This document shows positions 34,847-60,796 of a stretch of 64,000 nucleotides of DNA, in pieces. A model generated the notes under the pieces. That model saw only the letters and a program-made list of their open reading frames with translations, was not told the origin of the DNA and did no database searches. The stretch lies in the NCBI GenBank assembly GCA_022925895.1, contig JAKSYS010000881.1, positions 124,001-188,000 of the forward strand, read 5' to 3'. Each line of letters opens with the position of its first letter. Position 1 is the first letter of the stretch. Source of the stretch: Fragilaria crotonensis (Eukaryota > Bacillariophyta > Fragilariophyceae > Fragilariales > Fragilariaceae). A program made the position numbers and the translations under genes.

Positions 34847-35605
34847 TCAAATCAAGCCGATGATTTCCTTCTTCTTCTCAAGAAATTCATCACTGGTCAA
34901 AACACCACTAAGGTAGAGCTCAGTGACATCCTTCATACGGTCAGTTGCAGATCTAGCACTACCACCGCGTTCCATGGCAGGTGTTGCAACCACTTCTCCT
35001 TCACAGCATGCGTTCAGCGAGTGCTTGCCGTTGATAATGTCACGACGATTCAAAAGTTCGTGAACGAACCAATCGCGGTGGGCCAATCCCTTTCCAACGG
35101 GTCCGTATGGTCCTTTTGAGTAAACGCGTACAGTAGACATTGGCGTGCAACAAAGGCTTCCACATCCATTTCTGGCATCATCACTCTTACAATCAGTGAT
35201 GCTATCCAAGGGAATGGTTCTCACCGAATCACCGGAGGTGCAGCAACCTGGAATGCAGCAATCTTCATGATCCTTGTCAACAACTTTGAGTTCAGTTTCG
35301 GTCAGAATCCAGTATTGGTTTCGAATTTCATTATCGCATGAAGTCGTTGAAGCACGAAGGAGCAAATGTGGCCAAAAACAGGGAAGGATGAGGAATGCAC
35401 CGATTGACTGACAAAGGGCAGATGTTCCAAGATCTCGCCCGACTTCGGGGTCGAGTGATGTCCACGCAATCACTTCGTTTCTCAACACAGCCATTTCATG
35501 GACATCTCGGGGCAAACTGTTCTTGGTCTTGTTGCTCATTATTGTGAATGATGAAGGTGGTACTTGTACTTGTTCCAAGTATGGACGTCGAAGTATTTGG
35601 AACAA
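34847..35605 (-). CDS. PH-like/SHOCT membrane protein, paralog A
   Basis: One of five paralogs in the window, all on the minus strand. By comparison with the others the start is MSNKTK at 35539 (230 residues). Order: conserved N-terminus LPRDVHEMAVLRNEVIAWTS, a hydrophobic segment (FLILPCFWPHLLL), a PH-like core (RNQYWILTETELKVV, a Cys pair region CCIPGCC, TIPLDSITDC), an amphipathic stretch (LAHRDWFVHELLNRRDI), then a C-terminal SHOCT motif, MKDVTELYLSGVLTSDEFLEKKKEII. SHOCT is a short helical oligomerisation motif usual at the C-terminus of bacterial membrane proteins. Function unknown. The most diverged of the five. Confidence 0.75.
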   Translation of the reverse strand: MFQILRRPYLEQVQVPPSSFTIMSNKTKNSLPRDVHEMAVLRNEVIAWTSLDPEVGRDLGTSALCQSIGAFLILPCFWPHLLLRASTTSCDNEIRNQYWILTETELKVVDKDHEDCCIPGCCTSGDSVRTIPLDSITDCKSDDARNGCGSLCCTPMSTVRVYSKGPYGPVGKGLAHRDWFVHELLNRRDIINGKHSLNACCEGEVVATPAMERGGSARSATDRMKDVTELYLSGVLTSDEFLEKKKEIIGLI

Positions 35606-35699
35606 GGTGAAGGTCCGGACACCGACTTATGCTTGGTATTCTACTTGTAAGCATTTATCATTATATGTATACCTAAAATAACTCAGATATTGTCGTACT

Positions 35700-36110
35700 G
35701 TATTTTCAAAAGTAGTCGTATATATTTATTTTTTAATCCACGTACTGACGTAGCATTTGCGGTAGAAAAGTACATGGTACAAATTTTTCAGTAGAAATCT
35801 ACATGAAAACTTTTTTACACTGTGTCCAGAAATGTATATTGTATAACGTGGTACGAATCGTTGTGTAGAACGGACAACAATTTTATGTACAAGTACTCCG
35901 TTAATGCCATATCCAGTTTGTTCGATCTGTCTAGAAATACTGGAAAATGTAATTTGAATTCCAGATTCCTTGGTACAAATTTTGCAGTAGAAAACTACGT
36001 GTCCAATGTCCAGAGTACTACTGGAAAATGTATTTTGAATTCCAGATTCCAATGCTTCTAACGTGGTACTGTAGTACAAATTTTGCAGTAGAAAACTACA
36101 TGTCCAGAAT
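35700..36110. repeat. Degenerate direct repeats of about 80 bases
   Basis: Units built on GTACAAATTTTGCAGTAGAAA, CTACATGTCC and TGGAAAATGTATTTTGAATTC recur three to four times (35766, 35975, 36075 for the first motif). AT-rich; no gene. Confidence 0.6.
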
Positions 36111-36140
36111 CAATAGTACGTACCTGTCGTACTCCGTACT

Positions 36141-36791
36141 CTAGGTATAGATCTTACCAGACCTCCTCCGAGGGAGGAACAGGATCATGGCCCTGAGTTT
36201 GTGGTCGTTCTTGTCAGCCTTGTCCTCGGGCTTGTATGAGCGCACCAACCTGACACAATCCTCCGCCTCCCCCTCCCTCTTCAGGGAGGGAGGAGGTGCA
36301 CCATCATTGTCCCCAACCTCGTTCCCATCCTGACCATAGGGACACCGATTTAGGATGACGTCCATGAGGTAGAACTCGTCAAGGTACTCGGACACTGTTC
36401 CGGATTCCCGGAACATCTCGTTCATGTGTGTTAATTGGAAGGGATAATCACATTGGTAAGCCCTTGAAATCCAATTGAGCGGAGTCTTGCCAATACAGGC
36501 ATCATCTGGACGCTCCTCCTCCCCAGTTGTTGCCACATCCTGAAAGCGCCTCTCAAATTCGCTGCGCTCCTCGGGAACCACAGCCCTCGACAACAATGCC
36601 ATAATTTGCTGCTGGGATGGGAGGAACTTCCGAGGTTTCCGATCAGGAAGTGTCACGACAGTTGACGCCCCCGATGCTGACGCACGACTTGTCCGTTCCA
36701 AGTTCAGAAACGTTGTCTTGCACGGAGAAGTTCTTCTGTTGTCAGCAATCCGATCACGGTCACTTCTTCGATCGATTTTTTTGCGCGACAT
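36141..36791 (-). CDS. Unknown 216-residue protein
   Basis: Basic Ser/Arg N-terminus (MSRKKIDRRSDRDR), then a helical middle (QQQIMALLSRAVVPEERSEF and HMNEMFRESGTVSEYLDEFY), an acidic loop and a basic end. No known family. Its start lies at the edge of the 142-base minisatellite, so its promoter would have to be inside the repeat. It may be an orphan gene or part of an unidentified mobile element. Confidence 0.4.
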   Translation of the reverse strand: MSRKKIDRRSDRDRIADNRRTSPCKTTFLNLERTSRASASGASTVVTLPDRKPRKFLPSQQQIMALLSRAVVPEERSEFERRFQDVATTGEEERPDDACIGKTPLNWISRAYQCDYPFQLTHMNEMFRESGTVSEYLDEFYLMDVILNRCPYGQDGNEVGDNDGAPPPSLKREGEAEDCVRLVRSYKPEDKADKNDHKLRAMILFLPRRRSGKIYT

Positions 36792-36799
36792 GATAACCT

Positions 36800-37575
36800 T
36801 GCACCAGTCCTATTGTCGAGGCACGAACACTCTCGTAGACGTTCGCAGCACGTTGTGAACAGCAGTCGCTCAACCCACTGTATGGCAGGGAGCAACCGCA
36901 CGAACAAACGTTGCGAACGATCAGACGATAACGATGACGACAATACCAGTCGTATGGTCGAGACACGAACGCTCTCGTAGACGTTCGCAGCACGTTATGA
37001 ACAGCAGTCGCTCAACCCACTGTATGGCAGGGAGCAACCGCACGAACAAACGTTGCGAACGATCAGACGACAACGATGACGACGATACCAGTCGTATGGT
37101 CGTGGCACGAACGCTCTCGTAGACGTTCGCAGCACGTTATGAACACCAGCAGTCGCTCAACCCACTGTATGGCAGGGAGCAACCGCACGAACAAACGTTG
37201 CGAACGATCAGACGATAACGATGACGACGATACCAGTCGTATGGTCGAGACACAAACGCTCTCGTAGACGTTCGCAGCACGTTATGAACAGCAGTTGCTC
37301 AACCCACTGTATGGCAGGGAGCAACCGCACGAACAAACGTTGCGAACGATCAGACGACAACGATGACAACGATACCCGTCGTATGGTCGCGGCACGAACG
37401 CTCTCGTAGCCGTTCGCACGAAAACGACAACGAGGACGACGATACCAGTCGTATGGTCGTGGCGCGAACGCTGTCCTCGTAGACGTTTGCACGACGTTAT
37501 GAGCAGCAGCCAGTCACTCAACCCACTGTATGGCAGGGAGCAAGAACTGCACGCTCAAACGTTTGCAGCAGACAG
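36800..37575. repeat. Minisatellite, about 142-base unit, about 5.5 copies
   Basis: The marker CTCTCGTAGACGTTCGCAG starts at 36830, 36972, 37114, 37259 and 37401 (the last with one change), spacing 142, 142, 145 and 142, followed by a shortened and a partial copy to about 37575. Each unit also holds ACCAGTCGTATGGTCG, CAACCCACTGTATGGCAGG and CGAACAAACGTTGCGAACG. Near-identical units suggest recent expansion. Confidence 0.92.
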
Positions 37576-38465
37576 GAACGATGCGACAACGACCGTGATA
37601 CGAATCGGCTTCTTTCTTGTTTAAACTACAAGTTGTGACCACAGCGTGCTTGCTGGTTGAGTCTAGTTTGAAATGTACACGGAAACGACGTACATTGCAT
37701 ACTAGACTCAAAATTTGGTGTACGGGAAGGACTCATTTTACTATCATGCATTCTAGAGGTAACCTGTCATAGAACTTCACTCAAAAAATAATAATGGGGC
37801 AAATCACTCTAAGTACTTTCAGTACTTATTGGTCTTGGGAGTGGAGCATGAATACCATATATATATCAATGAGCTGTAGGTACGTATACGTAATCGACGA
37901 TCACATATATGCTACCCTTTATTTTTATTAAATGTAAAACAAGATAGAATAGTGTTAAATATCAATATACATGACACATTCAAAGCAGAATTAATATTAT
38001 GCGTCATCTGGGTTAATTGTACTACTACGCGTACGAAGAAGTATTCTTCACGAACGGAGATACTCCTACTAGTACTATGCCAACGACAACTCTACTACAA
38101 CGTACATGTACTATTCGCATTAGAGTACACGCCTGGCAATCACGTTTATGAATCACAAGACAAAAGAGCATGTGATTTAACCAAAATAGAGCGTGAAATA
38201 CAATTGCATGCAATTTATAGCAATGATCACCATGTATTCAAACAATACACATGTATAACTAAATCATGAATACGGGTGTTCTCAATATACAAGGTTATAT
38301 ATGTGTACTTTCAAAATGTACGTAGCCGTGATTTGAAAACGACTACTCACCAAACAAACTTCACAACCTACACAAAAAATAGAGTGAAGCAAACACGTAT
38401 TGCACCTGTTCACAACACAAAACTCATACAAATTCCACTTTCTCCTGAAGTCGTCAACATCAACA
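37576..38465. other. AT-rich intergenic region
   Basis: No gene recognised. It contains ATATATAT-type stretches near 37855 and CGTACATGTAC palindromes near 38100. Confidence 0.4.
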
Positions 38466-40205: not shown

Positions 40206-40689
40206 TACAATCAATTAACAACAAACTTATACAATGCTGTCTAGGGATCAATTAGACAACAGCATCAACATGGATGGGGAATCAACATATTTGGTTACAA
40301 CGGAACCATATGTTATCGATCAGAGTGTTTAAATAAACCAAAGAAAGATCACTTGCATCAACATTTTGTGTCAGTAGAAATGAAAAACGTCCACATAAAG
40401 GTTTTATTTACACCAAATTTGGTGTACAGATTGTTTGCTACTGACCTTTTATTGTTTAGATATAACGATATTTAGTTACATAACAAAATTTGTTCAAAAC
40501 TAACCCTCGAAATTTGTATAGACATCGAACGTTTGATCCTAAAATGTTAGTACTAAACATTGAATAAAAACTAAACAAAGCGCACCTTCTGATGCAACTT
40601 CAACACTTGGATCTCTCATCACATCCGATCGATCCCAGAAAGCAAAAGATTAACGGCACATAAAGAAAGCAGAAGACATCAAACAGGTC
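40206..40689. other. AT-rich spacer
   Basis: 3' flank of the Asp/Asn-rich gene; no gene seen. Confidence 0.4.
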
Positions 40690-43600
40690 TTCAAGAAACT
40701 AAAATGTGTCAGAGGCAAAGTAAACAAGCGAGGTATTACCGGTATTGAAATACTGTTGCACCCCAACCAAGACCCGAAGACATGCCGCGAATGGAGACAG
40801 CTTGATATTCCGTCCGAGGTATTGGCTCATTTGCAAAGTCGGAATAAAGTGCATTTCGGACAGGCTCAAGGAACACCATTCACAATTGACCCACTCCAGC
40901 AGGAACATCTGGGTTTCACCGGGAGTACAGTGGAAGGTGAAAACATCTTACTCGGCCACTACGATATCAGCGGGTATGACGAGTGCGTTCGTTTGGTATT
41001 ACAACACCTACAACAAAGTGCAGGAATCATGGCAACTCCATCTTTTCCTGCAATCGCCGATGACGACTTTGCTCAAAAACTAAAAGTATGGTCTGAAAGT
41101 ACGACAACCTCCCCGTCAGGTCTCCTGTTAGGCCATTACAAAGCTTTGATTGCCAGACATTCATTCTCCACAACCCTCTCTGATGAAAACTTGACACAAG
41201 GTTTCATCGCTCAGCGGGACGCATTAAGAAATCAACTTCAAAGAGAAATCCGCCGAGTTCATTTGCTCTTGATAAATAACGCCCTAGAGCAAGGATACTT
41301 GTATAAATGATGGCAATCACTGGCGAATACAACGTACGCATCCACCGAACACGAGTCATCCGCCCACATATATGAGGCGGACCTCAATTTATGTCTTGCT
41401 TGGGATCAAGTGGAGGGCAGCAATGCACCAGGCGGAAGACCTCAAACTGTTAAACGAGGGGCAGTGCGGATCTCGGACGGGATGAAGTGCGTACGATCCA
41501 GTCTTCCTGGAAGAGCTGCAATGCGAAGTTTCTAGAGTCACGCGTAAGTCACTTATTCTCACAAATTATGATGCAATGGCGTGTTATGACAGAATTGTGC
41601 CAAACATTGCCATGTTGGCAAGCCGGAAGTTCGGAGTCGCAGCGTCCGTCACTCATATGAATGCTACCACATTCTTAAATGCAGAGTACAGAATTCGGAC
41701 CGAGATGGGATTAGCACAATCCGGATACTCCCATGACAATGATCAACCAGTTTATGGCACGGGACAAGGGAGCGCAAATTCTCCTGCGATCTGGTGCTTT
41801 TTGTCAAGTATATTATTCGATTATTACGACAGGAATGGGCATCCAGCGACATATTCAAATCCAACGGGCGACGAGACAGTATCACTGGGCATGGTCGGGT
41901 TTGTCGACGACTGCAATGGGCAAACCAACTCATTCCTCCAGGACGATGAAGACGTCAATACAAATTGAAACCCTTCTGCATAAAACCCGAACGAATATGG
42001 ATGCATGGTCAAACTTACTCACGGCGAGCGGCGGCGCCTTGGAAATGTCGAAGTGTTCCAGCCACGTTCTACAGTGGAAGTTCTCAATGCAAGGAGCTCC
42101 AGTCTTAGTGTCGGGAACAACAGAAGAACAAGCCCTGCTCACAGTTCCGGACACAAACAGCTCTGGAGTCCCCCAAGCTATAACTGTGCTCTCACCATAT
42201 ACAGCTCATAAGACACCAGGGCATTACAAAGAACCCGCCGGAATACAAATCACACAAGGCAAGCGACTGCGGGAGTTACGTGAAGCCAACACCAAATTCC
42301 TTTGGACGTGTCCGTTATCACGTCAAGAAGCCTGGACATATTATTTTGCATGTTTCCTCCCAAGTGTGTGTTACCCCTTACCGCCATGTTCGTCTCTTAC
42401 CAAAGCGAATCTTGAGTTAATCCAACAAAAATCCTTGGCCATCATCATCGCGCGATGCGGATTCAATTGGAATACAAAGCGGGAGATGATCTATGGCCCT
42501 CGCAAACTTGGAGGAGCAAATTTCAGGCATCTATACCATCAGCAGGGACTCGGACAGATTAAGCTGTTCCTCACCCTTTGGCAAGATAAAACACAGGCCA
42601 GGAAATTATTGCGAATCGCGTTACGCTGGTTTCAGCATGCCGTTGGAACATCGGTATCTATCCTGGACGATGTGCATACGCCTCTTCCACAACTCATATC
42701 GAAATGGATTAAGTCCTTCCGTGAGTTCTTAGCTTCAATCAAAGCGTCTATTCACCTCAACGAACCCGGAGCGCCGGAATAACAACGTCAGAACGACATC
42801 TTAATCATGGATGCCATAATGCAGTCGAAGCAGTTCATGAGCGCAGAAATTAGGCGCCTCAATTACTGTCGCCTTTATTTGAAGTCCATAACACTAGCAG
42901 ATCTTGCCACCATCGCGGGAGACAAAGTTGAGGACTACACCTTATCCGGTGTCATCCCAGATCTTTGCCGAGCATATCAAAGGCCATGGATTCATCAAGG
43001 TAAACCCGGGACAGAGGAATGGAAATTATGGAGGAAAGCTAATCAATGGTGGAGCAACTCGGAGGGCTACCTGTATCAATCACTTGGGAACTGGTTACTC
43101 CCTAGGCTATTCATCGCCAAAGAATGATCCCAGATCTTTGCCGAGCACATCAAAGGCCATGGATTCATCAAGGTAAACCCGGGGCAGAGGAATGGAAATT
43201 ATGGAGGAAAGCTAATCAATTGTGGAGCAACTCGGAGGGCTACCTGTATCAATCACTTGGGAACTGGTTACTCCCTATTCATCGCCAAAGAATGATCCAA
43301 GATGGATACAAACACAGAAACAAAGTGTACGTCCGACATCCGTCTGGGGAGTTTCAAAAGTGTACACGAGTATCCCAGGAAATCAAGACTTGGAAATCAA
43401 CATCACAATATTATCGGTGGGACAACCTTCCGAGTGGTGCAACTCCAATCGAAATTCAGTACAAGGGGCAGGAACTGTGGACAAAAGTCGCGCAAAGTCT
43501 GGTTTTATCACCACAACACACGCAAAGTATCGCAACATTTGATGTGTTTATCGCAACTCTCTAGCGTCTTGGGAAAGCGACATACTACAACACACGGAGT

Positions 43601-45190
43601 TTTTTTTAGATCCTTATTCCGTATCGGTAATGTTGTCTCATGGAGTACGAGTCGTTAGTGATGGGTCAGAAAAGTACGGCAACCATGGTGCATTTGGCTG
43701 GGTGTTAAGTGACAATCGGAGAGAGAGAGTTGCGATGGGGATGGGACCGGGCCGAGGTGCCACTGCAAGTGCATTCCGATCAGAGGCTTTTGGGATGTTG
43801 GCTACTACCAGGTTTCTTCTACGGCTTGCGGAATTTACTGGTCACTTTGATGACTGGCACGGCATACCGGCTACCGATAGCCAAAGCGTCCTCGACACAA
43901 TCAAGCAACGCACCGCACTCGCAGAAGTATTTCACCACGGGCCCTGCCAGCTGCCAGTCGTACGAAGGTCAGTGGAAGAATCTGCCGGTTTTGTCAGCAG
44001 ATTGGGACGTTTTGATTGAAATCCAGGAATCCCTGAAACATTTACCAGGCCTGCGTTTGCAACATGTGCGAGGCCACCAGAACCTCCACACCCCATATCA
44101 TCAATTATCTCTTCTCGCCCAACTTAACGTCGATGCTGATCACCAAGCCTCGCGATACCAACGACTCCACGGCGCCGTGCGCCCGTACGTGTTGATGATG
44201 CCACATACAAGAGCCCACGTCCAATCGTGTAATGGAACAATCACATCGAACCATGAAGCAATCCTCCAACACACAGCAACAAAAGACCCTCTTTTCCTCC
44301 AACACATAGCCGTTTAGAATGATTGGACACCGGCCATCATGAGATTGATACATTGGACGGCACATGGTCAAGTCCTCAAGAAACGTATCCACCGTCGAGT
44401 TCATTTCACAAAACTTGTCCACGATATCCTACCCGTGAACGCAAATGTCCATAGGCACGATCGCCGCCGTAAATTATGCCCCCTATGCAACCGCCACAAT
44501 GAGACACGTGATCATGTTATCCGGTGCCAAGATAACTCAAGGCACGAATGGCGATCAGCTTTCTTGAACGCCGCACTCGACAAAACGTGCAAAGACAAAC
44601 GAACAAGGCCTGACTTACATCAACTACTGCTTCGCGCAGTTGCGGGGTGGCTCGCGAGAGACGATTATGTGATCGATTTACAGGCATATCCACAGGATCT
44701 TTGGAGAGTGGGAGCGCAACAACAAGCTATCGGGTGGCGACAGATGTTCAACGGCCGTTTTAGTGAAGAATGGAGTCACCTACAGGACGACTATTATGCA
44801 TCGTAATCATTACACAACCGCAACAAATTGTTTACAGGAGCACGATGGCAAGAATGTATAATTGGGACGTTTTGGGATCATTGATTTCTATTATGGGAAA
44901 TGCGGAACAGGGACTTACATGGAGCGGACACAGCGTCAAAACAACTAGCCAATAGGCGTGAAGTGGATCGTTCCCTGGCTGACCTATATGGCATGAAGGA
45001 CCACTATGACGATCCCATCCAACAATTTATGAGGAGTAGTGAAGAAGAGCACAGGAGGGAGCCGATATGGACAACACAAAACTGGATTGCACTTCATGGG
45101 CCATTAATAAAGGAGAATCTACGAGCTATTCAGGCACGGGCACGGTCAGGCATGCGTAGTATCCGGTTTTATTTCACCCGCGGAGGATAA
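40690..45190 (+). mobile_element. Broken LINE-like (non-LTR-type) retrotransposon
   Basis: In order along the plus strand: a conserved upstream segment (WRQLDIPSEVLAHLQ, HFGQAQGTPFTI, SPSGLLLGHYKAL), a reverse transcriptase with NYDAMACYDRI, GTGQGSANSPAIWCFLSS and FVDD, a thumb-like section with SGGALEMSKC, an RNase H domain (SDGSEKYGNHGAFGW, FRSEAFGML), a CPLC-x-CH-like zinc finger before HVIRC, and a C-terminal segment ending SGMRSIRFYFTRGG. I see no protease, integrase or LTR, so a non-LTR type is most likely, although family placement is uncertain. Clearly broken, with several interruptions and a truncated 5' end; not young. Confidence 0.75.
42954..43296. repeat. 173-base direct duplication inside the LINE-like element
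   Basis: The segment starting ATCCCAGATCTTTGCCGAGCA at 42954 is repeated immediately from 43127 with only a few differences. The duplication postdates insertion of the element or arose in this copy. Confidence 0.85.
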
Positions 45191-47265: not shown

Positions 47266-48033
47266 TCAAATCGAATCAATAATACACTTCCTCTTCTGAA
47301 GAAACTCCTCTCTGGTCAAGACACCACTATTGTGGAGCTCGATGATGTCGTTCATGCGGTCAGTTGCAGTTCTAAGAACATCCTTCAAAACACCACTATT
47401 GCGAAGCTCGGTGAAGTCCTTCATGTGATTTGTTGCAGACCCAGGACTGTCACCGCGTTCCATGACAGGTGTGGCAACCACTATGTCACGACGATTCAAA
47501 ACTTCGCGAATGAACCAGTCTTGGCGGGCCAATCCATACCCCATAGCTTCGTGTAGGGTATGTTCATCGGGCCAAAAACTGGCAGTGCTAACGTATAGGA
47601 AAGGTAGTTCCTGGCAGCACTCGTTCACACATCCATTTCCAGCAGTCACACTCCCACTGATACTGATTTCTTCCAACGGAATGGTTTTCACCAACTTACC
47701 AGTGCAGCAACTTGAACATTTATGATCCCTGGTAACAACTTTGAGTTCAGTTTCGGTCAGAATCCAGTATTGGTTTCGAAGTGTATATTCATAGGCAGTC
47801 TTTTCAGCACAATGAATCGGCCAAGCAAAGAGCAACTGTGGCAACAAACAAGGAAGGAAGAGGTAGACACCGAATGAATTACAGAAGGCAGATGCACCAA
47901 CATCTGGCGCGAACTCAGGGTCGAGTGTCGTCCAAGCAATCACTTTGTCTTTCAACCCAGCCATTTCATGGACATCTCGGGGCAAACCGTCCTCGGTCTC
48001 GTTGGTTACGAAGGATTTCTCTGGAACGCGCAT
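47266..48033 (-). CDS. PH-like/SHOCT membrane protein, paralog B
   Basis: 255 residues from MRVPEKSF. An in-frame TAA just upstream fixes this start and shows that the upstream similarity among paralogs is 5' UTR. It shares LPRDVHEMAGLKDKVIAWTT, a hydrophobic segment (LFLPCLLPQLLFAW), RNQYWILTETELKVVTRDH and LARQDWFIREVLNRRDI. The C-terminal SHOCT region is doubled: MKDFTELRNSGVLKD is followed by a full MNDIIELHNSGVLTREEF copy. The internal CEGAVVATP segment is shortened compared with A and C. Function unknown. Confidence 0.78.
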   Translation of the reverse strand: MRVPEKSFVTNETEDGLPRDVHEMAGLKDKVIAWTTLDPEFAPDVGASAFCNSFGVYLFLPCLLPQLLFAWPIHCAEKTAYEYTLRNQYWILTETELKVVTRDHKCSSCCTGKLVKTIPLEEISISGSVTAGNGCVNECCQELPFLYVSTASFWPDEHTLHEAMGYGLARQDWFIREVLNRRDIVVATPVMERGDSPGSATNHMKDFTELRNSGVLKDVLRTATDRMNDIIELHNSGVLTREEFLQKRKCIIDSI

Positions 48034-48980: not shown

Positions 48981-49293
48981 GGCATTTAACAGCGTCTCGC
49001 TTTCCAATGGGTTTGGTCACGACATTCAAAACAGTGGTCACAATAGTCAAGGAGGTGGGGTGCGTCCCAAGCGAGGTCGTTTGTTCGCCCTAGTTTACGA
49101 TGATGACGATGTCAGCAACGTGGACGTAGTGTCTGGGATGCTGTGTAATCTTGACGTCTTCAAGAATCATTCGTCTCAAGAAATTGACATCGAGGCCATC
49201 AGTCTTGGTCTGATGGGGATCGGCGGGGGTTCTCTCGGAGAATCCGGCGGTTCTACAGACAATATGCGAACAACGAGTAGGTTTTTGGGTTAA
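48981..49293 (+). pseudogene. 3' fragment of the MATH-ankyrin gene
   Basis: Corresponds to the end of the ankyrin gene (SLSNGFGHDIQNSGHNSQGG to TTSRFLG) with a few substitutions. There is no MATH, ankyrin or coiled-coil sequence upstream; unrelated DNA supplies an accidental ATG at 48913. It is a truncated passenger of the METTL5 duplication. Confidence 0.85.
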
Positions 49294-49583
49294 ATGTTCC
49301 TGATTGAGTTTCATGGCAAACATTAGATGCTTGCAAGTCCTTCGCGCCAAAATGCGAGGCAGATTTCATTAATAATACAACTTATGTCGATATTATGTGG
49401 CTAATGCCAATATCTTCGCTTCAAGCAGTCTTGGCTGCAAAGGCGGTGTCTGGTTTCACAAATCAGCGCTCTTGCATTCACTCTAGTGATCGATTCGTCA
49501 ATACCACAAACACGGCAATTCGGCACCCGAACACTCTTGACGGTTATCAAGATCGTAGGGTGTGCGTCGTTGTCATCGCTGCG

Positions 49584-50599
49584 TTAGTATTCATCTCCTT
49601 CCTCCACCTCGTCAGGTTCGTCCTGCTCATCGTCAGTAACATCACCAGAAATTGCAACTCTTATCAAGTCCACAGCAACATCGACATTGGCTTTGCTATG
49701 GAACTTGTACGTCGCTGGAATATCGAACTTCAGTTCCGCAACTACGCGCGCCTCGAAACCCCAAGAAGAAATCGTCTTGAGGAGATAGTCTCGCGTCGAC
49801 GTTTTATGAAAGGAATACACTGCCCGTCTGGCCAGACCGGTGCCGGCCTTGAGGAATCGAACATCCATGCCGGCATTGTGCTTCGTGCCAAAGGGAGGAT
49901 TCGTAACGACTGTATCGACGCAACCGTCCAAGAGTGGCAGACCATCGGGAGCATTCGGATCCAGCGTCGCGGTTGGAGGTTGTGGCGCACCACGACTCGT
50001 TCGACCACCCCGTCCTGACCCCCTCCCTGATTTGGATTTACCTCCACCAGCAGAATTGGTTTTGTTATTGTTCCCGTTCTTCTTTTCAACAAACCCTCCA
50101 TCGTTGACTTTGGCAAGAATAAAGTCCACAGTCACATTCAAATGTTCCGCATTCGCAACAGCCACTGCCACGGCATCGGGATCGCAATCAACGCCCCAAA
50201 TAGCATCACAATCGACGACGGCGCATCCCATTGCCAACATCCCCGTGCCACAGCCCAAATCCAGCGCCGTCCGACCAGGACCCAAATCACCTTCTTGTAG
50301 GGCAAACGAAACGATCGATGCCGTCAATGCGGCACTTGTCGGGTATTGTTCGAGGCGAATCTGGAGAAAGTGATGTATTGTACATGTGAGTGCGGGTGCT
50401 TTAGTGGGAAACCAAGAGCTTGCTGAGTTCGAGGGCTAAAACAGTCGATAACATATACTCCAAGTATCCAAGTCAACCCGCGCGTATGGTTTCATTTTCT
50501 CATGTGATACACACTCCAGCTCTCTATCCGGCATACCTTCGGATCTGGAAACTCTCGGGTGACTGAGGAAAGACATGATTCTATGTGCTTCAGCTTCAT
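49584..50599 (-). CDS. METTL5: METTL5-type 18S rRNA N6-adenine methyltransferase, copy 2
   Basis: Same two-exon structure as copy 1: exon 1 50599-50537 (identical 21 residues), intron 50536-50361 (GTATGC to TTTCTCCAG), exon 2 50360-49584. The catalytic NPPFGTKHNAG and SAM motif DLGCGTGMLAMG are present. By eye the protein differs from copy 1 at one residue (KAGTGLARR versus KAGTRLARR), while the introns are strongly diverged. Both copies look functional, which is unusual for a gene that is single-copy elsewhere. Confidence 0.92.
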
Positions 50600-50617
50600 T
50601 TATGGCCATGTATTCAA

Positions 50618-51223
50618 TAGTGTACTGCAGCAAGTAAAGGCTCTCAATCGTTACGTTGTCGTCCAACGTCGAAGAGTACAACTCCAGAACACCGCGTCTG
50701 TGGCCTTTGAGGATCTACTAGAGTGATTAAGAGGAGTGTACGCAAAAGAACCCGGACAATCATTTACAGCTCTGCGATAGAATTAACTGCGGAAGTAACT
50801 TGGTCCGACAAGGTTGACATTAACACGTCTATGCACGATGTAACTATATTGGAGGAAACAACCACATCAAGCGGCCAACATGGTAATATGCATAATCCCC
50901 TCGTTCTTCGCAGTTCACAACTTCAAAGGCATGCAGGAACTAAAACGGAAAAAAGATTGCACAGGATAAACTTCTGCTACTCAAGTGCCACCAAACAGGT
51001 TTCGACCTGTACCACGAGTACATTAGGTGGCGGCATAACCGCCTTTTCCTCTACAAGTACTGGAGGGAGCCGTCCATGTCTAAGACGCGCAGGTCACATG
51101 AAGGATCTTTAGAGTTAGAGGAGAAAGTTGTTGCTTCAAGCTTCAAGCGTACTTCGGCTTTGTTGCCACATTGTGGTATTGGGCTAGCCCACCGCTACCA
51201 AACTCATTACACCAGTCGTCTCC
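50618..51223. other. 3' flank of SHOCT paralog C
   Basis: 50868-51220 is nearly identical to 56495-56850 downstream of paralog D, including CACAACTTCAAAGGCATGCA and GGAGGGAGCCGTCCATGTC. It contains no convincing open frame conserved between copies. Confidence 0.6.
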
Positions 51224-51982
51224 TCAAATTGAATCGACGATGTCCTTCCGCTTCTCAAAAAACTCTTCTCTGGTCAAAACACCACTATTGTGAAGCTCAG
51301 TGATGTCCTTCATACGGTCTGCTGCAGATCGAGTACTACCACCGCGTTCCATGACAGGTGTTGCAACCACTGCTCCTTCACAGCATGCGTTCAGCGAGTG
51401 ATTGCCTTTGACAATATCGCGACGATTCATAACTTCGCGAATGAACCAATCTTGGCGGGCCAATCCATACCCAATGATCTCGTGTTCTGGGCTCCCATCC
51501 TTTCTCACAAAACCTGCAGTGTCGACGTATAGCTTGGACAGTGGCTTGCAACAAGAGGTCACAAACCCTTTCCTGGGATTGTTGCTGCCACATTCAGTGA
51601 TACTCTCCAAGGGAATAGTTTGCACCGAATCACCAGAGTTAATGCAACCTGGAAGGCAGCAAACATCATAATTCTTGGTTACAATTTTGAGTTCAGTGTC
51701 GGTCAGAATCCAGTATTGGTTTCGAATTCTGTTTTCAAAATTAGTCTTTGCAAAACAAAGGAGTGGCGACATAATGAGCAAATGTGGCCAAAAACATGGG
51801 AGGAAGATGAAAGCACAAAATGCGCTATCAAAGTCATATATACCGACGTCTTGGGCAAATTCAGGGTCGAGTGATGTCCACGCAAGCACGTCGTTCCTCA
51901 ACGCCGCGATTTCATGAACGTCTTGGGGCAAAGTGTCCTCGGTCTCAACGGCAGTGTAGCTGTCCTTTGGCACTACACTCAT
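51224..51982 (-). CDS. PH-like/SHOCT membrane protein, paralog C
   Basis: Start taken at MSVVPKDSY (51982), matching the paralogs; the frame is open 14 codons further. 252 residues: LPQDVHEIAALRNDVLAWTS, a hydrophobic segment (FIFLPCFWPHLLIMSPLL), RNQYWILTDTELKIV, CCLPGCI, TIPLESITECG, LARQDWFIREVMNRRDI, HSLNACCEGAVVATPVMERG and the SHOCT end MKDITELHNSGVLTREEFFE. It stands directly beyond METTL5 copy 2, just as paralog A stands beyond METTL5 copy 1, but the two SHOCT proteins are far more different than the two METTL5 proteins. Confidence 0.8.
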   Translation of the reverse strand: MSVVPKDSYTAVETEDTLPQDVHEIAALRNDVLAWTSLDPEFAQDVGIYDFDSAFCAFIFLPCFWPHLLIMSPLLCFAKTNFENRIRNQYWILTDTELKIVTKNYDVCCLPGCINSGDSVQTIPLESITECGSNNPRKGFVTSCCKPLSKLYVDTAGFVRKDGSPEHEIIGYGLARQDWFIREVMNRRDIVKGNHSLNACCEGAVVATPVMERGGSTRSAADRMKDITELHNSGVLTREEFFEKRKDIVDSI

Positions 51983-53007: not shown

Positions 53008-53032
53008 AGCTACTAGTGTCTAGCCTCCCGAC

Positions 53033-53119: not shown

Positions 53120-53365
53120 CCTTGGATCTGCTCCGCCAATTCGGTGACAAGGTCCGTTGGCTTTAAGGATTGGCCTATGCCTTCGTAACACATGTAGATG
53201 GCATGCCGTCAACGGGGGTATGCTCAATCTTCTTTGTTGTAGAGTTATTAAAAATTTTCAGCAGCTAAAATTTTTTTCTTCCGAATTTCAATCGTTTTTT
53301 TCGGCGCTGCCCCATGAACTTTGTGGTGCTGCACCTGCATCCGCTCATAAGCAACTGAGCTCATA

Positions 53366-55669
53366 ATGCCCAGAAATGATCCTCGACATGTGGTTGGGGC
53401 ACGGGTGCAAGCGAAAGCTCACCACGTGACAGTCCTGGCCGAGTGCCATCGACGATATGGAGCCAACGCGAAAACGAAGTTCGTTAATGGGACTGTCGTT
53501 TCGGTTGATTCCGCTTCATCGAGCGGCGGGAGAAGGGCAACAACTCTAATCACCGCAGATTACGAGCTTGGTGGTGGCACTATTAAGAGGTGCCAGTTGA
53601 ATTCGAGAGGGATCAAGATGGCCGACGCAGAATCGATCGCTGGTGTGAGCAATGAACCCGTGACTGCACTCGTGAATGAAAACGTCGAAGATGTTAATGA
53701 AACGATCAACGTCGGAGCACCTTCTGTTGCCGGTATGTCCACCCAAGAAATGCTTGATGCCATTCAAAGTTCGGATGAGGAGCCGGAGCAGCAGGCACAA
53801 GCAAGTATGGAGACAACGACAGCTGCACCAGCAGTTGCTGTAGCAACTGTTGCAGCGAACGATCGTTCCATTGTTGCAACTGCTCATCATGTTGAGTGGC
53901 GGAGGGCATTCAGCACTGAGCCTTCATTGAATGGTAATTGCGCTCCACGTATGTGGAGTGTGAGGAATGTAGTAGTTGGTGAGGACCTCTATCCTGGACA
54001 ACGGAATTCAGCAATAAATCGTATGAGTGCCATCGACTTCTTTCTTCTGATGTTCCCTCCAAAGCAGCTTGTTGCGATGGTTGATCTGACTAACGTTGAG
54101 CTTGAGAAGCTGGACGCCAATACGACTAACTCCTCGGAGCTTCTGAAATTCTTTGGTGTGTTAATACTCATGACTTCTTTTGAATTCACATCCAGGGCGA
54201 GTCTTGTTTGGAGTTCTGTCGCGCCGATGAAGTATCGACCTGCACCTCACTTTGGACTCACCGGTATGTCAAAGCATCGCTTTGACGACCTCTTTCGCGC
54301 TATTCGATGGAGCAAGCAACCTTCTGAACGAGCTGAGAACGAAAGTACTGAGCAACATCGGTGGAAGTTGGTGGATGACTTCGTCGCGAACTTCAACGAC
54401 CACAGAGCAAATTTTTTCTCTCCGTCCGACACAATTTGTGTCGACGAATCCATGAGCCGTTGGTACGGCCAGGGAGGGCACTGGATCAACCACGGCCTTC
54501 CACAATACGTCGCGATTGACCGAAAGCCGGAGAACGGCTGCGAAATTCAGAACGCTGCGTGTGGTCGAAGCGGAGTGATGTTGCGTTTGAAGTTGGTCAA
54601 AGGTATTGACCTCGTCGGTGAGGAGGAAGACAATGATGAACCAAACAATGAGTCAAGTTTGTTGCATGGTACACAAGTGTTGAAATCTGTTGTCTCACCT
54701 TGGTTTGGTTCGAATCGCATCGTTTGTGCAGACTCGTACTTCGCTTCTGTTGGAGCGGCAAAAGAACTCTATCGGAACGGCCTCCGTTTCATCGGCGTTG
54801 TCAAGACCGCGACGAGAGGTTTCCCAAAAGCCTTCCTCACTTCGGTGGAACTGAACCAACGTGGTGATTTCTTCGCCCTCGCTTCGGATTCTGCAGACCA
54901 ACTGGATCCTGCTATGGCTGCTTTCGTGTGGATGGATCGGGAACGAAGGTACTTTATTGCAACGGCAGGGGCTCTCTCGGAAGGAACGCCATACACTCGC
55001 TGCCGTTGGCGGCAAGTGAGTCAAGATCGGAATGCTCCTCCGGAGCGGGTCACCATGACCATCAAGCAACCTCATATTGCGGAGATCTACTATACTACGT
55101 GTGGTGCCATCGACAGGCACAATCGGTATCGTCAAGACGACCTTCGGATCGAGAAGAAGGTCGAAACGAAGGATTGGTCGGTTCGAGTTAACCTTTCTAT
55201 TTTTGCCATGATCGTCGTCGATACATGGCTCGTGTACAACGCATTCAAAAATGGTACTTCCTCTGCGCAGCAGCAAAGAAAGTGTCTACAAAAGGAGTTT
55301 TACTCCATCCTTGCAGAGGAACTTATTGACAATAGCTACGACAATCGGAGAACAGGAACGCGACGACCGAGGTCGTCCCCAAATGGGACATCCTACCAAG
55401 AGGCATGCATCAGGGCCGTGGAAAGTGGATGTGCACGTGCTGGAGTCCTCACCCACTTGACTCCAGTGAAGAGACTCAAGAATGCCCATGGAGAAAAGAC
55501 ATCATTTAGGTACCAAGGCCGATGTAAGGAGTGTCAAAAGAAGACAACTTGGCAATGTAGTGACTGCAATGATAGCGATAAAACGGTGTTCCTTTGCGCA
55601 ACCAAAAATGGAAAACGGTGCTTCCTCGACCATATTGCTCGCAACCACGCACACTTAGATGACATTTAA
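53366..55669 (+). CDS. piggyBac-type transposase
   Basis: Intact 767-residue protein. The N-terminal 80 residues form a small basic SH3/Tudor-like module (VGARVQAKAHHVTVLAEC). The DDE_Tnp_1_7 core follows, from about residue 210 (MSAIDFFLLMFPP). The catalytic aspartates by motif are D360 (CVDESMSRW), D456 (VCADSYF) and D583 (CGAIDRHNRYR). A C-terminal Cys-rich finger (RCKECQKKTTWQCSDC, then CATKNGKRC and HIARNHAH) matches the piggyBac CRD. The enzyme cuts and pastes its element. The lack of any interruption, in a window where host genes show many, suggests recent activity. Confidence 0.93.
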   Translation: MPRNDPRHVVGARVQAKAHHVTVLAECHRRYGANAKTKFVNGTVVSVDSASSSGGRRATTLITADYELGGGTIKRCQLNSRGIKMADAESIAGVSNEPVTALVNENVEDVNETINVGAPSVAGMSTQEMLDAIQSSDEEPEQQAQASMETTTAAPAVAVATVAANDRSIVATAHHVEWRRAFSTEPSLNGNCAPRMWSVRNVVVGEDLYPGQRNSAINRMSAIDFFLLMFPPKQLVAMVDLTNVELEKLDANTTNSSELLKFFGVLILMTSFEFTSRASLVWSSVAPMKYRPAPHFGLTGMSKHRFDDLFRAIRWSKQPSERAENESTEQHRWKLVDDFVANFNDHRANFFSPSDTICVDESMSRWYGQGGHWINHGLPQYVAIDRKPENGCEIQNAACGRSGVMLRLKLVKGIDLVGEEEDNDEPNNESSLLHGTQVLKSVVSPWFGSNRIVCADSYFASVGAAKELYRNGLRFIGVVKTATRGFPKAFLTSVELNQRGDFFALASDSADQLDPAMAAFVWMDRERRYFIATAGALSEGTPYTRCRWRQVSQDRNAPPERVTMTIKQPHIAEIYYTTCGAIDRHNRYRQDDLRIEKKVETKDWSVRVNLSIFAMIVVDTWLVYNAFKNGTSSAQQQRKCLQKEFYSILAEELIDNSYDNRRTGTRRPRSSPNGTSYQEACIRAVESGCARAGVLTHLTPVKRLKNAHGEKTSFRYQGRCKECQKKTTWQCSDCNDSDKTVFLCATKNGKRCFLDHIARNHAHLDDI

Positions 55670-55859
55670 ACAATGTGTTAACGTTTCAATCATCATTCAT
55701 TTGTAGCATCATCATCGTTTTGACCGTCATCGTCGACCCCTTTTTTTAGTAGACTTGAGTATTTTTTGTACACACGAAGTGAAAATCGGGACGGGGTTAA
55801 TTAAGGCATTTGACGGGGTTAATTAACCCCAAGGCTCCGGGAGGCTAGACACTAGTAGT

Positions 55860-55965
55860 AGACGGGAAATTCTGACCCAGCGCCAGCAGAAAAACCCTTC
55901 GGGCCTACAGTGTGGGTTTTGGGTGGAGATCAGGATTTCATGGGTAGGCCCAACTCTCAATTCTT
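55860..55965. mobile_element. Diverged partial relative of the 13.9-kb hAT MITE
   Basis: GACGGGAAATTCTGACCCAGC and later GTGGGTTTTGGGTGGAGATC plus GGATTTCATGGGTAGG follow the order of the matching pieces in the MITE at 13863. The left terminus is damaged next to the piggyBac-type element and no right terminus is seen. Confidence 0.6.
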
Positions 55966-56019
55966 GGAAATTTATGATTCATAGCCGCATCATACAGTCT
56001 CACGCGTCTTCAGCTGGTA

Positions 56020-56851
56020 AGCGTTCGTCGTCCGTCGTCGATGGTGTCGAGTTGCGATTCTGAATGAGCGATTAAACACTGGTAATGATGTCAAGTTTAC
56101 AAACGCCTATACACCGGACGGCTCTCACTAATTTTGACTACAGAATTTGTGATCAACACGACTCCAGACGTTGGTTGATCCTAAGTCCCAAATCACAGCA
56201 AGCGGCAAAAATGTGTGCGTACTCCGCTCATTGTTCGCACTTCACAACTTCAAAGGCATACAGGAACTACTACCGGAAAAAGTCGTCCTTCAAAGGCGTG
56301 CAGGAACTAGACCGATACATGTTGTTACGCTTCCTATTGGAAGGTGGCACTCAAAAGGGAGCCGTCCATGCTGGCGCGCGCAGATTATTTAACATTAATT
56401 ACGTTAATGGAGGGAGATATTGCTTCACTAATACATGGGCTTTTCAGGAACATAGCTGGTCCTACGTGGTTGATTGGAGTGAACAACCACACCAAGCGGC
56501 CATCATGGTAATGTGCGTAATCCCCTCGTTGTTCGCGGTTCACAACTTCAAAGGCGTGCAGGAACTAAAACGGAGAATAGATTGCACAGGATAAACTTCT
56601 GCTACTCAAGTGCCACCAAACAGGTTTCGACCTGCAAGACGAGTACATCAGGTGGCGGCATAACCGCCTTTTCCTCTACAAGTACTGGAGGGAGCCGTCC
56701 ATGTCTAAGACGCGCAGGTCACATGTAGTATCTTTAGAATTAGAGGAGAAAGTTGTTGCTTCAAGCTTCAAGCGTACTTCGGCTTTGTTGCCACATTGTG
56801 GTATTGGGCTAGCCCACCGCCATTATCAAACTCATTACACCAGTCGTCCCC
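56020..56851. other. Two stacked copies of the SHOCT-gene 3' flank
   Basis: 56020-56480 resembles the flank of paralog A (GTCGATGGTGTCGAG, ACACGACTCCAGACGTTGG, CGCTCATTGTTCGCAC), and 56495-56851 matches the flank of paralog C. The first copy has no gene of its own, suggesting a lost paralog between C and D. Confidence 0.55.
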
Positions 56852-57610
56852 TCAAATCGAATCGACGATGTCCTTCCGCTTCTCAAGAAACTCTTCTCTG
56901 GTCAAAACACCACTATTGTGAAGCTCAGTGATGTCCTTCATACGGTCTGCTGCAGATCGAGTACTACCACCGCGTTCCATGACAGGTGCTACAACCACTG
57001 CTCCTTCACATGAATTCAGCGAGTGATTTCCCTTAACATTGTTGCGACGATTCAAAACTTCGCGAATCAACCAATCTTGGCGGGCCAATCCATACCCCAT
57101 AGCCTCGTGTTCTGGGCTCCATTCGTTCGTCACAAAACTCGCTGTGTCGACATATATCATAGGCAGTGGCTTGCAACAAGAGTTCCCACACCCACTTCTG
57201 GCATTGTTACTTCCAAAATCAGTGATACTCTCCAAGGGAATGGTTTGCACCGAACCACCAGCTTTGATGCAGCCGGGAAGGCAACCGTCATGATCTTTGG
57301 TAACAACCTTGAGTTCAGTTTCGGTCAGAATCCAATACTGGTTTTGTATTTTGTTTTCAAAGTCAGACTTTGCGCAGCAAAAACATGGCCAAAATATGAG
57401 CATCAAAGGCAAAAAGCATGGAGCGAAGGAGATGGGGAAAGGGCAAAATGCGCGGCAGCAGGCATATGCACCAACATCTCTCGCAAATGCAGGATCGAAT
57501 GATGTCCAGGCAATCACTTCGTTTCTCAACGCAGCCATTTCATGGACGTCTTGGGGTAAACTCTCATTCATTTCGACGGCTATGTAGTTGTCCTTTGGAA
57601 CAACCCTCAT
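56852..57610 (-). CDS. PH-like/SHOCT membrane protein, paralog D
   Basis: Start at MRVVPKDNY (57610), 252 residues. It shares LPQDVHEMAALRNEVIAWTS, a long hydrophobic segment (FAPCFLPLMLIFWPCFCC), IQNQYWILTETELKVVTKDH, LPGCIKAGGSVQTIPLESI, LARQDWLIREVLNRRNN and the SHOCT end MKDITELHNSGVLTREEFLE. The SHOCT half and downstream flank are almost identical to paralog C, while the N-terminal half differs more, which suggests exchange between copies. Confidence 0.8.
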   Translation of the reverse strand: MRVVPKDNYIAVEMNESLPQDVHEMAALRNEVIAWTSFDPAFARDVGAYACCRAFCPFPISFAPCFLPLMLIFWPCFCCAKSDFENKIQNQYWILTETELKVVTKDHDGCLPGCIKAGGSVQTIPLESITDFGSNNARSGCGNSCCKPLPMIYVDTASFVTNEWSPEHEAMGYGLARQDWLIREVLNRRNNVKGNHSLNSCEGAVVVAPVMERGGSTRSAADRMKDITELHNSGVLTREEFLEKRKDIVDSI

Positions 57611-57726
57611 TGTGAATGACGATTGTGGTAGTTGCTCCACCTATGCACCATCCACCGCATTGTTTGTGTTGCAGCAAGAAGAGATCGCTATGTTTGTGAG
57701 ACGTGTTTTGACTTTTGACCCATACA

Positions 57727-58296
57727 CAGGGGTGTCCTATTTAAGGCGGGCGCCTTAATTTTGGGGCCAATCGCCTTTTTGAAGCCTTGAAATAGCGCCT
57801 TAAATAAGGTCCTGTAGATTCTACGCTACAAACATACCATCGTGTAGAATTGTACGTGTAAGTTTGTACGGAGCATTCTCGTAGCATAGTACGACAGTAC
57901 TCCAGTAGATAATAAACAACATACAGTAGACATGGATACAGTACCTTGTTGTACAGTACTCCAGTATATCCGTAGCCAGTAGCAAGATGCTTTACTTGGA
58001 CTTGGAACTCAACTGTTGCAGTGAAAAAAGCTGAAACAATTGAAGTTACTTCCATGATTGTTCATGGTGAGCTGTGAGGTCTGTTGGCAGTGTTATTTTC
58101 ATGATGGACTGAAGTGGGGATGAGCGTTGCAGCTGCTCTGTACAGTCATGAACCTTAACTCTAAATCCCCAAAACCCTAACCCCTAACCCCCACCGCCTT
58201 ACACCGCCTTTTTGAAGGTCCAAAAAAGCGCCTATATTAACTAATTAAGGCGCTGCTAGGCGCGCCGGCCCGGTCGCCTTAAATAGGACACCCCTG
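57727..58296. mobile_element. hAT-type MITE, 570 bases, 8-base target duplication
   Basis: The termini are inverted: CAGGGGTGTCCTATTTAAGG at 57727 and its complement ending at 58296. CCCATACA is present immediately on both sides (57719-57726, 58297-58304), a perfect 8-base duplication. Subterminal GCGCCTTAA and CCGCCTTTTTGAAG motifs also recur in inverted order. The middle has AACCCTAACCCCTAACCC, telomere-like, near 58170. No transposase; non-autonomous and probably young. Confidence 0.92.
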
Positions 58297-58304
58297 CCCA
58301 TACA

Positions 58305-58609
58305 CATCTACTTTATTGGCTTCTCACGGTTTTTTTCAGTTACTGCCAGGGTATGGTACTACCGGTAGTACCAGGTACAAGGTACTCGAGTACCTGGTAC
58401 CAGGTGGAGTACACTGTAAAAGGTAGTCGTACATCTACAAAATACGCATAATAACATCGAGAGTAGACTGAACGGAGTACAAGTAGTTTTAGTAGTCTTG
58501 GAGTGTATGTACAGTATATGATATACTATATACTGCGAGTACAATATTTACCATGTACTAGCTAGAGTACCCTACATGGGGAAAAGCATATGCACAATGC
58601 ACTCAACAC
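58305..58609. other. Palindrome-rich spacer
   Basis: 58355-58420 is built of TACCGGTAGTACCAGGTAC and GTACTCGAGTACC palindromes, followed by ATATACTATATAC near 58520. No gene. Confidence 0.5.
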
Positions 58610-59395
58610 TCAATACTCGTACGGTCGAGTGTTGCAATCAAAAATCGAATCAATTATATCCTTCCTCTTCTGAAGAAATTCCTCGCCGGTCAACACACCA
58701 CCATTGAGGAGCTCTGTGATGTCCTTCATACGGTCAGCTGCAGATGTCGGACTATCACCGCGTGAAATGACAAGTGCTGGAGCAACTCCTCGTTCACTTG
58801 CATTCAGCGAGTGATTGCCTTTGACAATGTCGCGACGATTCAAAACTTCGCGAATGAACGAATGTCGGCGGGCCAATCCGTACCCAATAGCCTCGTGTTG
58901 TGGGATATCGTCACTTCTTTCATAGGTACCAGTGTAAACGTATACCATAGGCAATGGCTCTAAACAAGTGATTACAAATGCATTGCTGTCATCGTCAGTC
59001 CAACAATCAGCGATGCCCTCCAAGGGAATGGTTTGTACCGAATCACCAGCTTTGATGCAGCCGGGAAGGCAGCAGGCGTCATGATCCTTGGTGACGACTT
59101 TGAGTTCAGTTTCGGTCAGAATCCAGTATTGGTTTCGAATTCTGTTTTCAAAATTAGTCTTTTCAGAGCACAGGAATGGCCAAAAAATAAGCAAAGGTGG
59201 ACAAAAACATGGAAGGGCGAGCATAACATCAAATACGCGACAGCAGGTAGGGATACCAACATCTCGCGCGAATCTTGGGTCGAATGATGTCCACGCAATC
59301 ACTTCGTTTATTAACACAGCTATTTCTTGGACATCGTGGGGCAAAGTGTCCCTGGTCTCGACAGCGATGTACTTGTCCATTGGGACGACGCTCAT
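58610..59395 (-). CDS. PH-like/SHOCT membrane protein, paralog E
   Basis: Start at MSVVPMDKY (59395), 261 residues; the frame is open 38 codons further. It contains LPHDVQEIAVLINEVIAWTS, a hydrophobic segment (MLALPCFCPPLLIFWPFLC), RNQYWILTETELKVVTKDH, CCLPGCIKAGDSVQTIPLEGI, LARRHSFIREVLNRRDI and the SHOCT motif MKDITELLNGGVLTGEEFLQ, followed by a short extra tail. The segment equivalent to CCEGAVVATPVMERG is altered (SERGVAPALVISRG). Function unknown. Confidence 0.78.
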   Translation of the reverse strand: MSVVPMDKYIAVETRDTLPHDVQEIAVLINEVIAWTSFDPRFARDVGIPTCCRVFDVMLALPCFCPPLLIFWPFLCSEKTNFENRIRNQYWILTETELKVVTKDHDACCLPGCIKAGDSVQTIPLEGIADCWTDDDSNAFVITCLEPLPMVYVYTGTYERSDDIPQHEAIGYGLARRHSFIREVLNRRDIVKGNHSLNASERGVAPALVISRGDSPTSAADRMKDITELLNGGVLTGEEFLQKRKDIIDSIFDCNTRPYEY

Positions 59396-60796
59396 TGTTG
59401 TGAATGTTGGTTGCAGTCCTCGAAGCTGTTCCAAATATGCACTTCGAAATGAAGAGTTCACGTTTTTTGTGTGAAGCATATAGGCGCTCACTGTCTGCGT
59501 ACAGCACAAGATTATCTTGGCGAGACGTGCTTCGAATGTTTCATAGCGAAAGTACTTGCACCTGTGGGTGGTATCAGGAACTTGAACCTACTGGAGTCTG
59601 GAGTACACTGGTGTAGGGCTTGAAATAGTTATCAGGTTATATGCAAACCATACTTTTCAAATCAGCAACACCAACCCGGATTCTTTCACATGCATAGTGC
59701 GAAGTGCGACAGCGGTCGGATGACCAGAGCAACATTGAACTGCTAATTGTCTGTGTTGTATCGACACCGTCAATGACTAGTAGGGAGTAGGGCCAAACGT
59801 TTGTGATGGCGCGATGGCACAAGGTTTGACTTGATTGGAGGATACTGATGAGACACATCTTGGGGTGCCCCATTGCTTTATGGGCTTCTGATTATCTTCC
59901 TCTGTACCGTGTGACGATGTGGCTATCATCTGCGTTGCCACATGATAGTCGCAATGACGTGAAATTTGGAAAGCAAAAGAACCCTTAGCGTCGTCCACTC
60001 CCGTTGGTGGTATTCACTGATATTTAACTTTCTGAAGATTCAAAAATTGCATTAAAAAGAAATCAGCAAGTCATCGCCGCCGTGGGCTGTCACAAATCTT
60101 GTCACGTCCTTCCGCAGGAGAAGACAATTCTTGCCAAGAGTCCGAGTTTCAAAGGCCATTGGGAGGATTTTACAAGATTGTCCACAGTGGACAACGACTG
60201 GGTTGAAATCTGGCAACTAGGATTTTGGCAGCCGTACAAGCCTTTGGCCATGTCAGTCAGGTGGATGCCTTTTTCGCCGTTCCATCAATTGTCAGTTCGA
60301 TTTGATGGATGTCTTGCCACAAACATTGCAGCATCAAGAATCGGAGCTAGGATTCACCGTGTGTCTTGGCAAGGTTAACTCACATATCTCACCATGTTGC
60401 ACGTCATGATGAATGCATGCCACAATTTTCTTGAAAATAGCGATGTATGTTATTGTCTTCAAACAACGCGAAGCAATAGGAGCGTAAAGGTTGACATACA
60501 GGATGGGCTTCGTACCCTTCGAGCGAACAGTGCTATCGGTGGTGAACATGGCTTTTTATCAGGAAGTGCCGATTCGTACTTGGGAGATTTGGCCGTGCAC
60601 AGGACACGGCGATCTGGCGGGGACTTGCCGGCGCAGAATGCCAACTACACATTCCAGACATGTTGCTCATCTAGGAAAAGCATCTGCGAAAACGAATGTC
60701 AGTGAAATCGACACGTTGGTGTAGCTTCCTACTTCGGCATTTAGCAAGGTGTCCAACGAGTCCCGATATTTGGTAGTCAACAATCATAATTAAAAC
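59396..60796. other. Intergenic region, no gene recognised
   Basis: Starts with the 5' flank of paralog E. A plus-strand open frame at 60082-60378 (98 codons) shows no known motif and is not called; it could be an exon of an unrecognised gene. Confidence 0.35.

Follow-up and report, generated by a model that had tools for sequence, protein, structure and literature searches.

A cluster of five genes for PH-like proteins with SHOCT-type tails in the diatom Fragilaria crotonensis

The five-gene cluster

The window analyzed here is a stretch of 64,000 nucleotides from the diatom Fragilaria crotonensis (assembly GCA_022925895.1, contig JAKSYS010000881.1, positions 124,001 to 188,000, forward strand). 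It carries five minus-strand genes, A to E, which a first-pass annotation had read as a family of membrane proteins with a PH-like core and a C-terminal SHOCT motif. All five were present with intact reading frames in an open reading frame (ORF) check of the window (Table 1); the proteins, counted from likely ATG starts (230-261 aa), are shorter than the original ORFs. They could be aligned end to end and had a common start, a YWILT-ELK motif, a Cys loop and a tail. Protein D was 56-74% identical to the other four copies, and phmmer matched it to them at E-values of 4e-73 to 7e-116, excluding chance resemblance. The usual linker was missing from B, which carried an additional partial copy of the tail (GSATNHMKDFTELRNSGVL), and E had a short extension past the tail. 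A-E are one real, coherent and apparently undescribed protein family.

When four different whole-protein queries were run against the 62-Mb genome (881 contigs), no match was obtained beyond the A-E locus, the counts being lower bounds. The diatom identity of this genome is borne out by at least 61 light-harvesting matches; the best of these proteins matched PDB entries 6ly5 FCPI-7 (E 1.1e-87) and 6l4u Lhcr11 (E 1.1e-86), which come from a diatom of the genus Chaetoceros. The SHOCT Pfam model gave 0 matches in the same genome because the tails score too low, and the copy count rests on the whole-protein queries. Five copies, at this locus only, are in keeping with the local eukaryotic expansion proposed in the first-pass annotation.

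Table 1. Positions of the five genes and of features within them (window coordinates)
Feature	Position	Strand	Remarks
Gene A	34847..35539	-	230 aa from likely ATG
Gene B	47266..48033	-	255 aa from likely ATG
Gene C	51224..51982	-	252 aa from likely ATG
Gene D	56852..57610	-	252 aa from likely ATG; copy used for structure prediction
Gene E	58610..59395	-	261 aa from likely ATG
PH strand 1 of D	57497..57517	-	residues 32-38; model
Hydrophobic Cys/Pro-rich hairpin of D, between strands 1 and 2	57344..57493	-	residues 40-89; model, hydropathy
Remaining PH-like core of D (strands 2-7 and C-terminal helix)	57017..57340	-	residues 91-198; model
SHOCT-type two-helix tail of D	56858..56953	-	residues 220-251; Pfam and model
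3' end and 3' flank of C, tract near-identical to D	50848..51412	-	boundary approximate
Counterpart of the C tract in D	56473..57037	-	boundary approximate

Predicted fold and hydrophobic hairpin

The AlphaFold model of D (pLDDT 86) showed a PH fold in which a C-terminal helix caps seven strands. Strands were predicted at residues 32-38, 91-96, 99-104, 120-125, 129-135, 151-156 and 170-173, and the helix at 178-197. Seven strands followed by a C-terminal helix is the arrangement that characterizes the PH-like superfamily; the predicted structure of D has it and matched PDB entries. Pfam was blind to the PH-like core of the family, for which the predicted structure, with its PDB matches, and the profile comparison described below provide the support. 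No sequence of a solved structure was matched by D at E ≤ 10, and profile A1 matched solved structures only at E 0.66 or worse.

Between strands 1 and 2 the model placed a hydrophobic, Cys/Pro-rich insert, consistent with a membrane hairpin; the median longest uncharged stretch was about 30 residues. The first 30 residues had no strong hydrophobicity, as judged from hydropathy only and with no signal-peptide predictor run. According to the available text of PMC2817789, the strand 1-2 loop is a frequent phospholipid-binding site in eukaryotic PH domains, PH domains are ancient in bacteria, and change has taken place in the hairpin between strands 1 and 2.

The C-terminal tail

With the SHOCT profile (PF09851; curated Pfam cut-off 27 bits), the family consensus scored 28.5 bits and protein P0058 29.0 bits, both over the cut-off. 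The window copies scored 18.9 (A), 19.1 (B), 14.7 (C), 21.3 (D) and 11.4 bits (E), with E-values from 0.28 to 2e-4, so that no single copy reached 27 bits. In precomputed annotation PF09851 was passed by 20 of 81 proteins, and a SHOCT match at E ≤ 1 was obtained in 53 of 58 family members (best 3.8e-8). The tail of D was modelled as two helices, at residues 220-232 and 238-251 of 252. Judged from the profile scores, the C-terminus is SHOCT-type at the level of the family, as the first-pass annotation had held. A PHROG profile, phrog_2700, matched P0058 over residues 116-241 (E 9.4e-7) and D over the tail only (E 0.0044). SHOCT proteins in general likewise have a C-terminal two-helix tail; the domain is mainly bacterial, and the accessible part of PMC3581485 reports it from 19 eukaryotic species and names no diatom among them. 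No paper joining SHOCT and diatoms was found among the open-licence PMC papers searched.

In total, 18 Pfam families were matched by any of the 58 members at E ≤ 1. The stray matches were all weak and were given no weight: GvpG in 20 members (best E 0.0055), SHOCT_2 in 5, Rer1 and DMAP_binding in 4 each, DruA in 2 (best E 0.062), Gallidermin in 1 (E 0.0029), bPH_1 in 1 (E 0.084) and the remaining families in one member each. The GvpG and DMAP_binding matches fell on the helical tail. DruA, of the Druantia defence system, was the lone defence-leaning stray and received no support from PADLOC. NCBIfam matches were scattered, single and weak.

Selection and sequence exchange

Pairwise maximum-likelihood ratios of nonsynonymous to synonymous substitution (omega, dN/dS) were 0.38-0.65 in the six B-E pairs, each below 1 (twice the log-likelihood difference, 2dlnL, 4.8-21.8); the four pairs that include A gave 0.65-1.13. 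Codon models were fitted to 209 ungapped codons on three topologies (M1a and M2a on one); they assume a single tree, an assumption broken by exchange between copies, and the A-E tree is poorly resolved. A single ratio gave an omega of 0.63-0.66 over the three topologies. When A was given a separate omega, it was 1.16-1.48 versus 0.53-0.56 in the rest (2dlnL 6.5-7.9), though not significantly above 1 (2dlnL 0.3-1.4). M1a placed a proportion of 0.56 of sites at omega 1, and M2a placed 0.47 at omega 1.25, which was not significant; positive selection was not detected on the one topology used (M2a versus M1a, 2dlnL 1.48). A is thus the fastest-evolving copy and constraint on the family is weak.

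Identity between C and D was 72-79% in the first 285 bases, 80-85% in the middle and 92-98% at the end of the gene, and stayed at 94.7% over 376 bases of 3' flank, presumably non-coding. A permutation test on the longest run shared by two copies gave p = 0.0002 in C/D, 0.0026 in C/E, 0.017 in B/D and 0.096-0.59 in the seven others of the 10 pairs tested. Because the coding start is more diverged than the adjacent flank, a recent exchange of the 3' part is indicated, and the SHOCT-coding 3' ends seem to have been exchanged recently between C and D. Beyond 52007 and 57632, 22-25 bases ahead of the ATG, C and D were no longer alike; since this upstream sequence is unshared, the promoters may differ.

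The first-pass annotation had described the family as fast-evolving and still turning over. Turnover was borne out by the C/D exchange, the partial tail duplication in B and the weak constraint.

Relatives and phylogeny

D alone, used as query, retrieved 18 proteins including the five of the window; an alignment of these 18 retrieved 81, of which 76 came from outside the window. Two more relatives were added by a third search, and one of the two was also named as an MMETSP transcript. MMETSP is a transcriptome project of marine microbial eukaryotes, and the name suggests that such an organism expresses this relative. None of the relatives lay on a contig longer than about 14 kb. Scans with two short patterns, which distant members could escape, yielded 39 stretches in viral contigs (IMG/VR) and 33 in prokaryotic genomes, with 0 confirmed members in either, which makes a viral or contaminant gene less likely. 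With tblastn, the phage alignments of P0058 were confined to its final quarter (best E 0.2), and P0034 gave nothing below E 0.4 against plasmids.

Duplication of the family seems to recur outside this genome. P0019 was a head-to-tail double protein, and P0026/P0029 (8730) and P0018/P0044 (2579) were each taken, from their equal contig sizes, to lie on one contig. The tree had 73 rows: 69 of the 83 proteins, chosen by a length of 200-340 aa, and two double proteins entered as four halves. In it A-E formed a single clade (100/100) with P0004, a relative from another source, which adjoined A (100/99); if P0004 belongs to a different species, one duplication or more would predate the split. The other forks inside this clade were weakly supported and the branching of A-E was poorly resolved.

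Comparison with bacterial and phage PH proteins

The accessible part of PMC3581485 describes SHOCT together with PF03703 in nine proteins. Here, two Bacillota proteins (L057 and the one protein at L080/L090) and a protein of Enterococcus phage vB_ElaS_B1578 (L088) were over the cut-offs of both PF14470 (bPH_3) and SHOCT with hmmscan, and so was a further Bacillota protein (L102) in genome searches. The PF14470 profile itself matched none of the 58 family members at E ≤ 1. When alignments were compared with hhalign, the family matched 26 bacterial and phage proteins with a probability of 94.3 (E 9.5e-8; reversed 0.2), four SHOCT-bearing proteins with 97.0 (E 9e-11; reversed 0.1), 13 hand-picked proteins with 96.0 (E 4.4e-9; reversed 0.0) and 22 proteins without SHOCT with 0.6 (E 0.1). 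When tail and hairpin were removed, the E-values were 0.0028 (26 proteins), 0.00039 (four) and 0.05 (22), with 0.6, 0.84 and 0.74 for the reversed sequences. The profile similarity to bPH_3-SHOCT proteins is thus mostly tail-driven. The 26-protein set comprised 24 of 30 loci plus L057 and L088, taken by a fixed rule (listed strand, ORF over the middle, 80-330 aa); L099, L104, L106, L111, L115 and L117 were dropped, L099, L104 and L115 among them by hand as their ORFs looked unrelated, and L105 and perhaps L108, which look like wrong ORFs, were kept. The 13-protein set comprised 11 hand-picked loci of the 30 plus L057 and L088, L102 not being among them.

The bPH_3-SHOCT proteins likewise have a PH domain, a linker and then a C-terminal SHOCT, and, judged by eye, the motifs come in a similar order (a VI strand, a [YA]-x-[IL]-T strand, then S/T-I-x-L-x-N-I). 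They differ in having neither the hydrophobic strand 1-2 hairpin nor the Cys loops of the diatom family. One Bacillota bPH_3 protein (L114, about 1500-1740) had two hydrophobic segments ahead of the second PH strand, in a diatom-like manner. Proteins of the DUF304/bPH_2 type (PF03703), including YdbS-type proteins and one from the same genome, showed by inspection a short strand, a hydrophobic hairpin and the rest of the PH domain, as in the diatom family; the hairpin before the second strand is therefore common to the model of D and, by inspection only, to the bacterial side. By eye, the eight inspected proteins had no SHOCT-like tail and their hydrophobic segments were longer. PF03703 matched 1 of the 58 members (E 0.06), and DUF304 was rejected as a direct parent, hhalign of alignment A2 against the 8 DUF304-type proteins giving nothing (probability 0.2). 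A 17-row YdbS-type alignment gave a predicted structure too poor for use (pLDDT 57). Hairpin-bearing PH proteins are thus present in bacteria and once in this genome; the latter (contig C100, L021 875-1779) was the only PF03703 match listed for the genome and had the strand-hairpin-strand layout, and the start of the ORF just upstream resembled a secreted or plastid-targeted protein. Eukaryotic GRAM/PH proteins (MTMR2, 1zvr; Lam6, 5yqr) were also counted among the closest known systems.

The closest known kind by descent would be the bacterial or phage bPH_3-SHOCT protein. The claim of an undescribed kind of protein did not survive, as PH plus SHOCT is already described in bacteria (PMC3581485, accessible part) and the present searches recovered it from Bacillota genomes and one phage; the family is a eukaryotic version of the bacterial PH-SHOCT type, short of a demonstrated new system.

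Surroundings of the cluster

A methyltransferase block (PrmA/MTS-like, small-domain) was duplicated at 32466-34096 and 48981-50616 with 95.7% identity, one copy lying 3' of A and the other 3' of C; despite this, A and C themselves were only about 76% identical. Between C and D lay a 767-aa ORF (53366-55669) with DDE_Tnp_1_7 (PF13843), a transposase domain of the PiggyBac type. Several overlapping ORFs resembling pieces of a retroelement were found between A and B (40745-44806); four were scanned and only the last had a match, a weak one to zf-RVT (E 4.5e-4). Tandem repeats occupied 36803-37563, recurring every 142-145 bases or so, with copies up to 95% identical. A 1347-aa ORF (28349-32392) united MATH, ankyrin repeats and PCIF1_WW, a combination that we do not know from elsewhere.

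Discussion

Our preferred reading, which we hold with about even confidence, is that A-E encode diatom PH adaptors that are embedded in the membrane and face the cytosol. In each, the strand 1-2 loop of a PH fold (seven strands and a helix) is predicted to be extended by a hydrophobic hairpin of some 50 residues, and the fold to be followed by a disordered linker and then by the SHOCT-type tail with its two helices. Because strand 1 and strands 2-7 form one fold in the model, the two ends of the hairpin should lie on the same side, presumably the cytosolic one, and the hairpin may enter the bilayer with no need to cross it, given its uncharged stretch. The membrane would be contacted by the PH face, leaving the flexibly linked tail free to recruit a partner. 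Among the paralogs, the variable hairpin may set different membrane preferences, and the better-kept tail may bind one partner common to all. Phosphoinositide binding, as in eukaryotic lipid-binding PH domains, is putative for the family.

It is unlikely, in our estimate, that these are instead membrane-stress or peptide-handling proteins like the bacterial hairpin-PH proteins YdbS and DdE, which would stabilize or patrol membranes under membrane-active compounds. DUF304 proteins and the bPH_2 protein of this genome have the same layout by inspection, with Y-x-[IVL] in the strand after the hairpin; DdE and DdF are reported as necessary for enterocin DD14 transport (PMC8657885, available text), and SHOCT-like domains accompany partners of the PSP envelope-stress system (PMC11237479, available text). 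However, the profile comparison with DUF304-type proteins gave nothing and no neighboring gene hints at stress. We give a similarly low chance to the copies being partly redundant duplicates with no special role, descended from an ancestral membrane PH protein that was amplified at a duplication-prone, transposon-rich locus. The restriction of the copies to one locus, the duplicated methyltransferase block, the transposase ORF and retroelement-like pieces among the genes and the omega of 0.63 fit this account, but five intact reading frames, the significantly constrained B-E pairs and relatives elsewhere that also appear duplicated speak against it. A role in defence or cell-surface variation with paralogs diversified by an arms race, as the first-pass annotation suggested, is quite improbable and not supported here: the C/D exchange alongside a variable 5' part, the faster A and the roughly half of sites near neutrality favor it, yet the protein start is not strongly hydrophobic, 0 of 58 members match PADLOC at E ≤ 1, positive selection was not significant, and hairpin ends lying on one side in the model argue against a place on the cell surface.

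The adaptor reading could be extended to a membrane recognition system of the diatom lineage, in which gene conversion would homogenize the SHOCT tail and 3' flank and leave the membrane-inserting hairpin half to diversify, and a small repertoire of sensors of membranes or pathogens would feed one shared partner; we regard this extension as a long shot. An oligomerization test of SHOCT was negative, according to the accessible part of PMC3581485, and what SHOCT tails bind is a question from that founding paper. The cluster would bring into a photosynthetic eukaryote a bacterial-type PH-SHOCT architecture whose PH fold incorporates a membrane hairpin, and it offers a compact set of paralogs in which that question may be asked.

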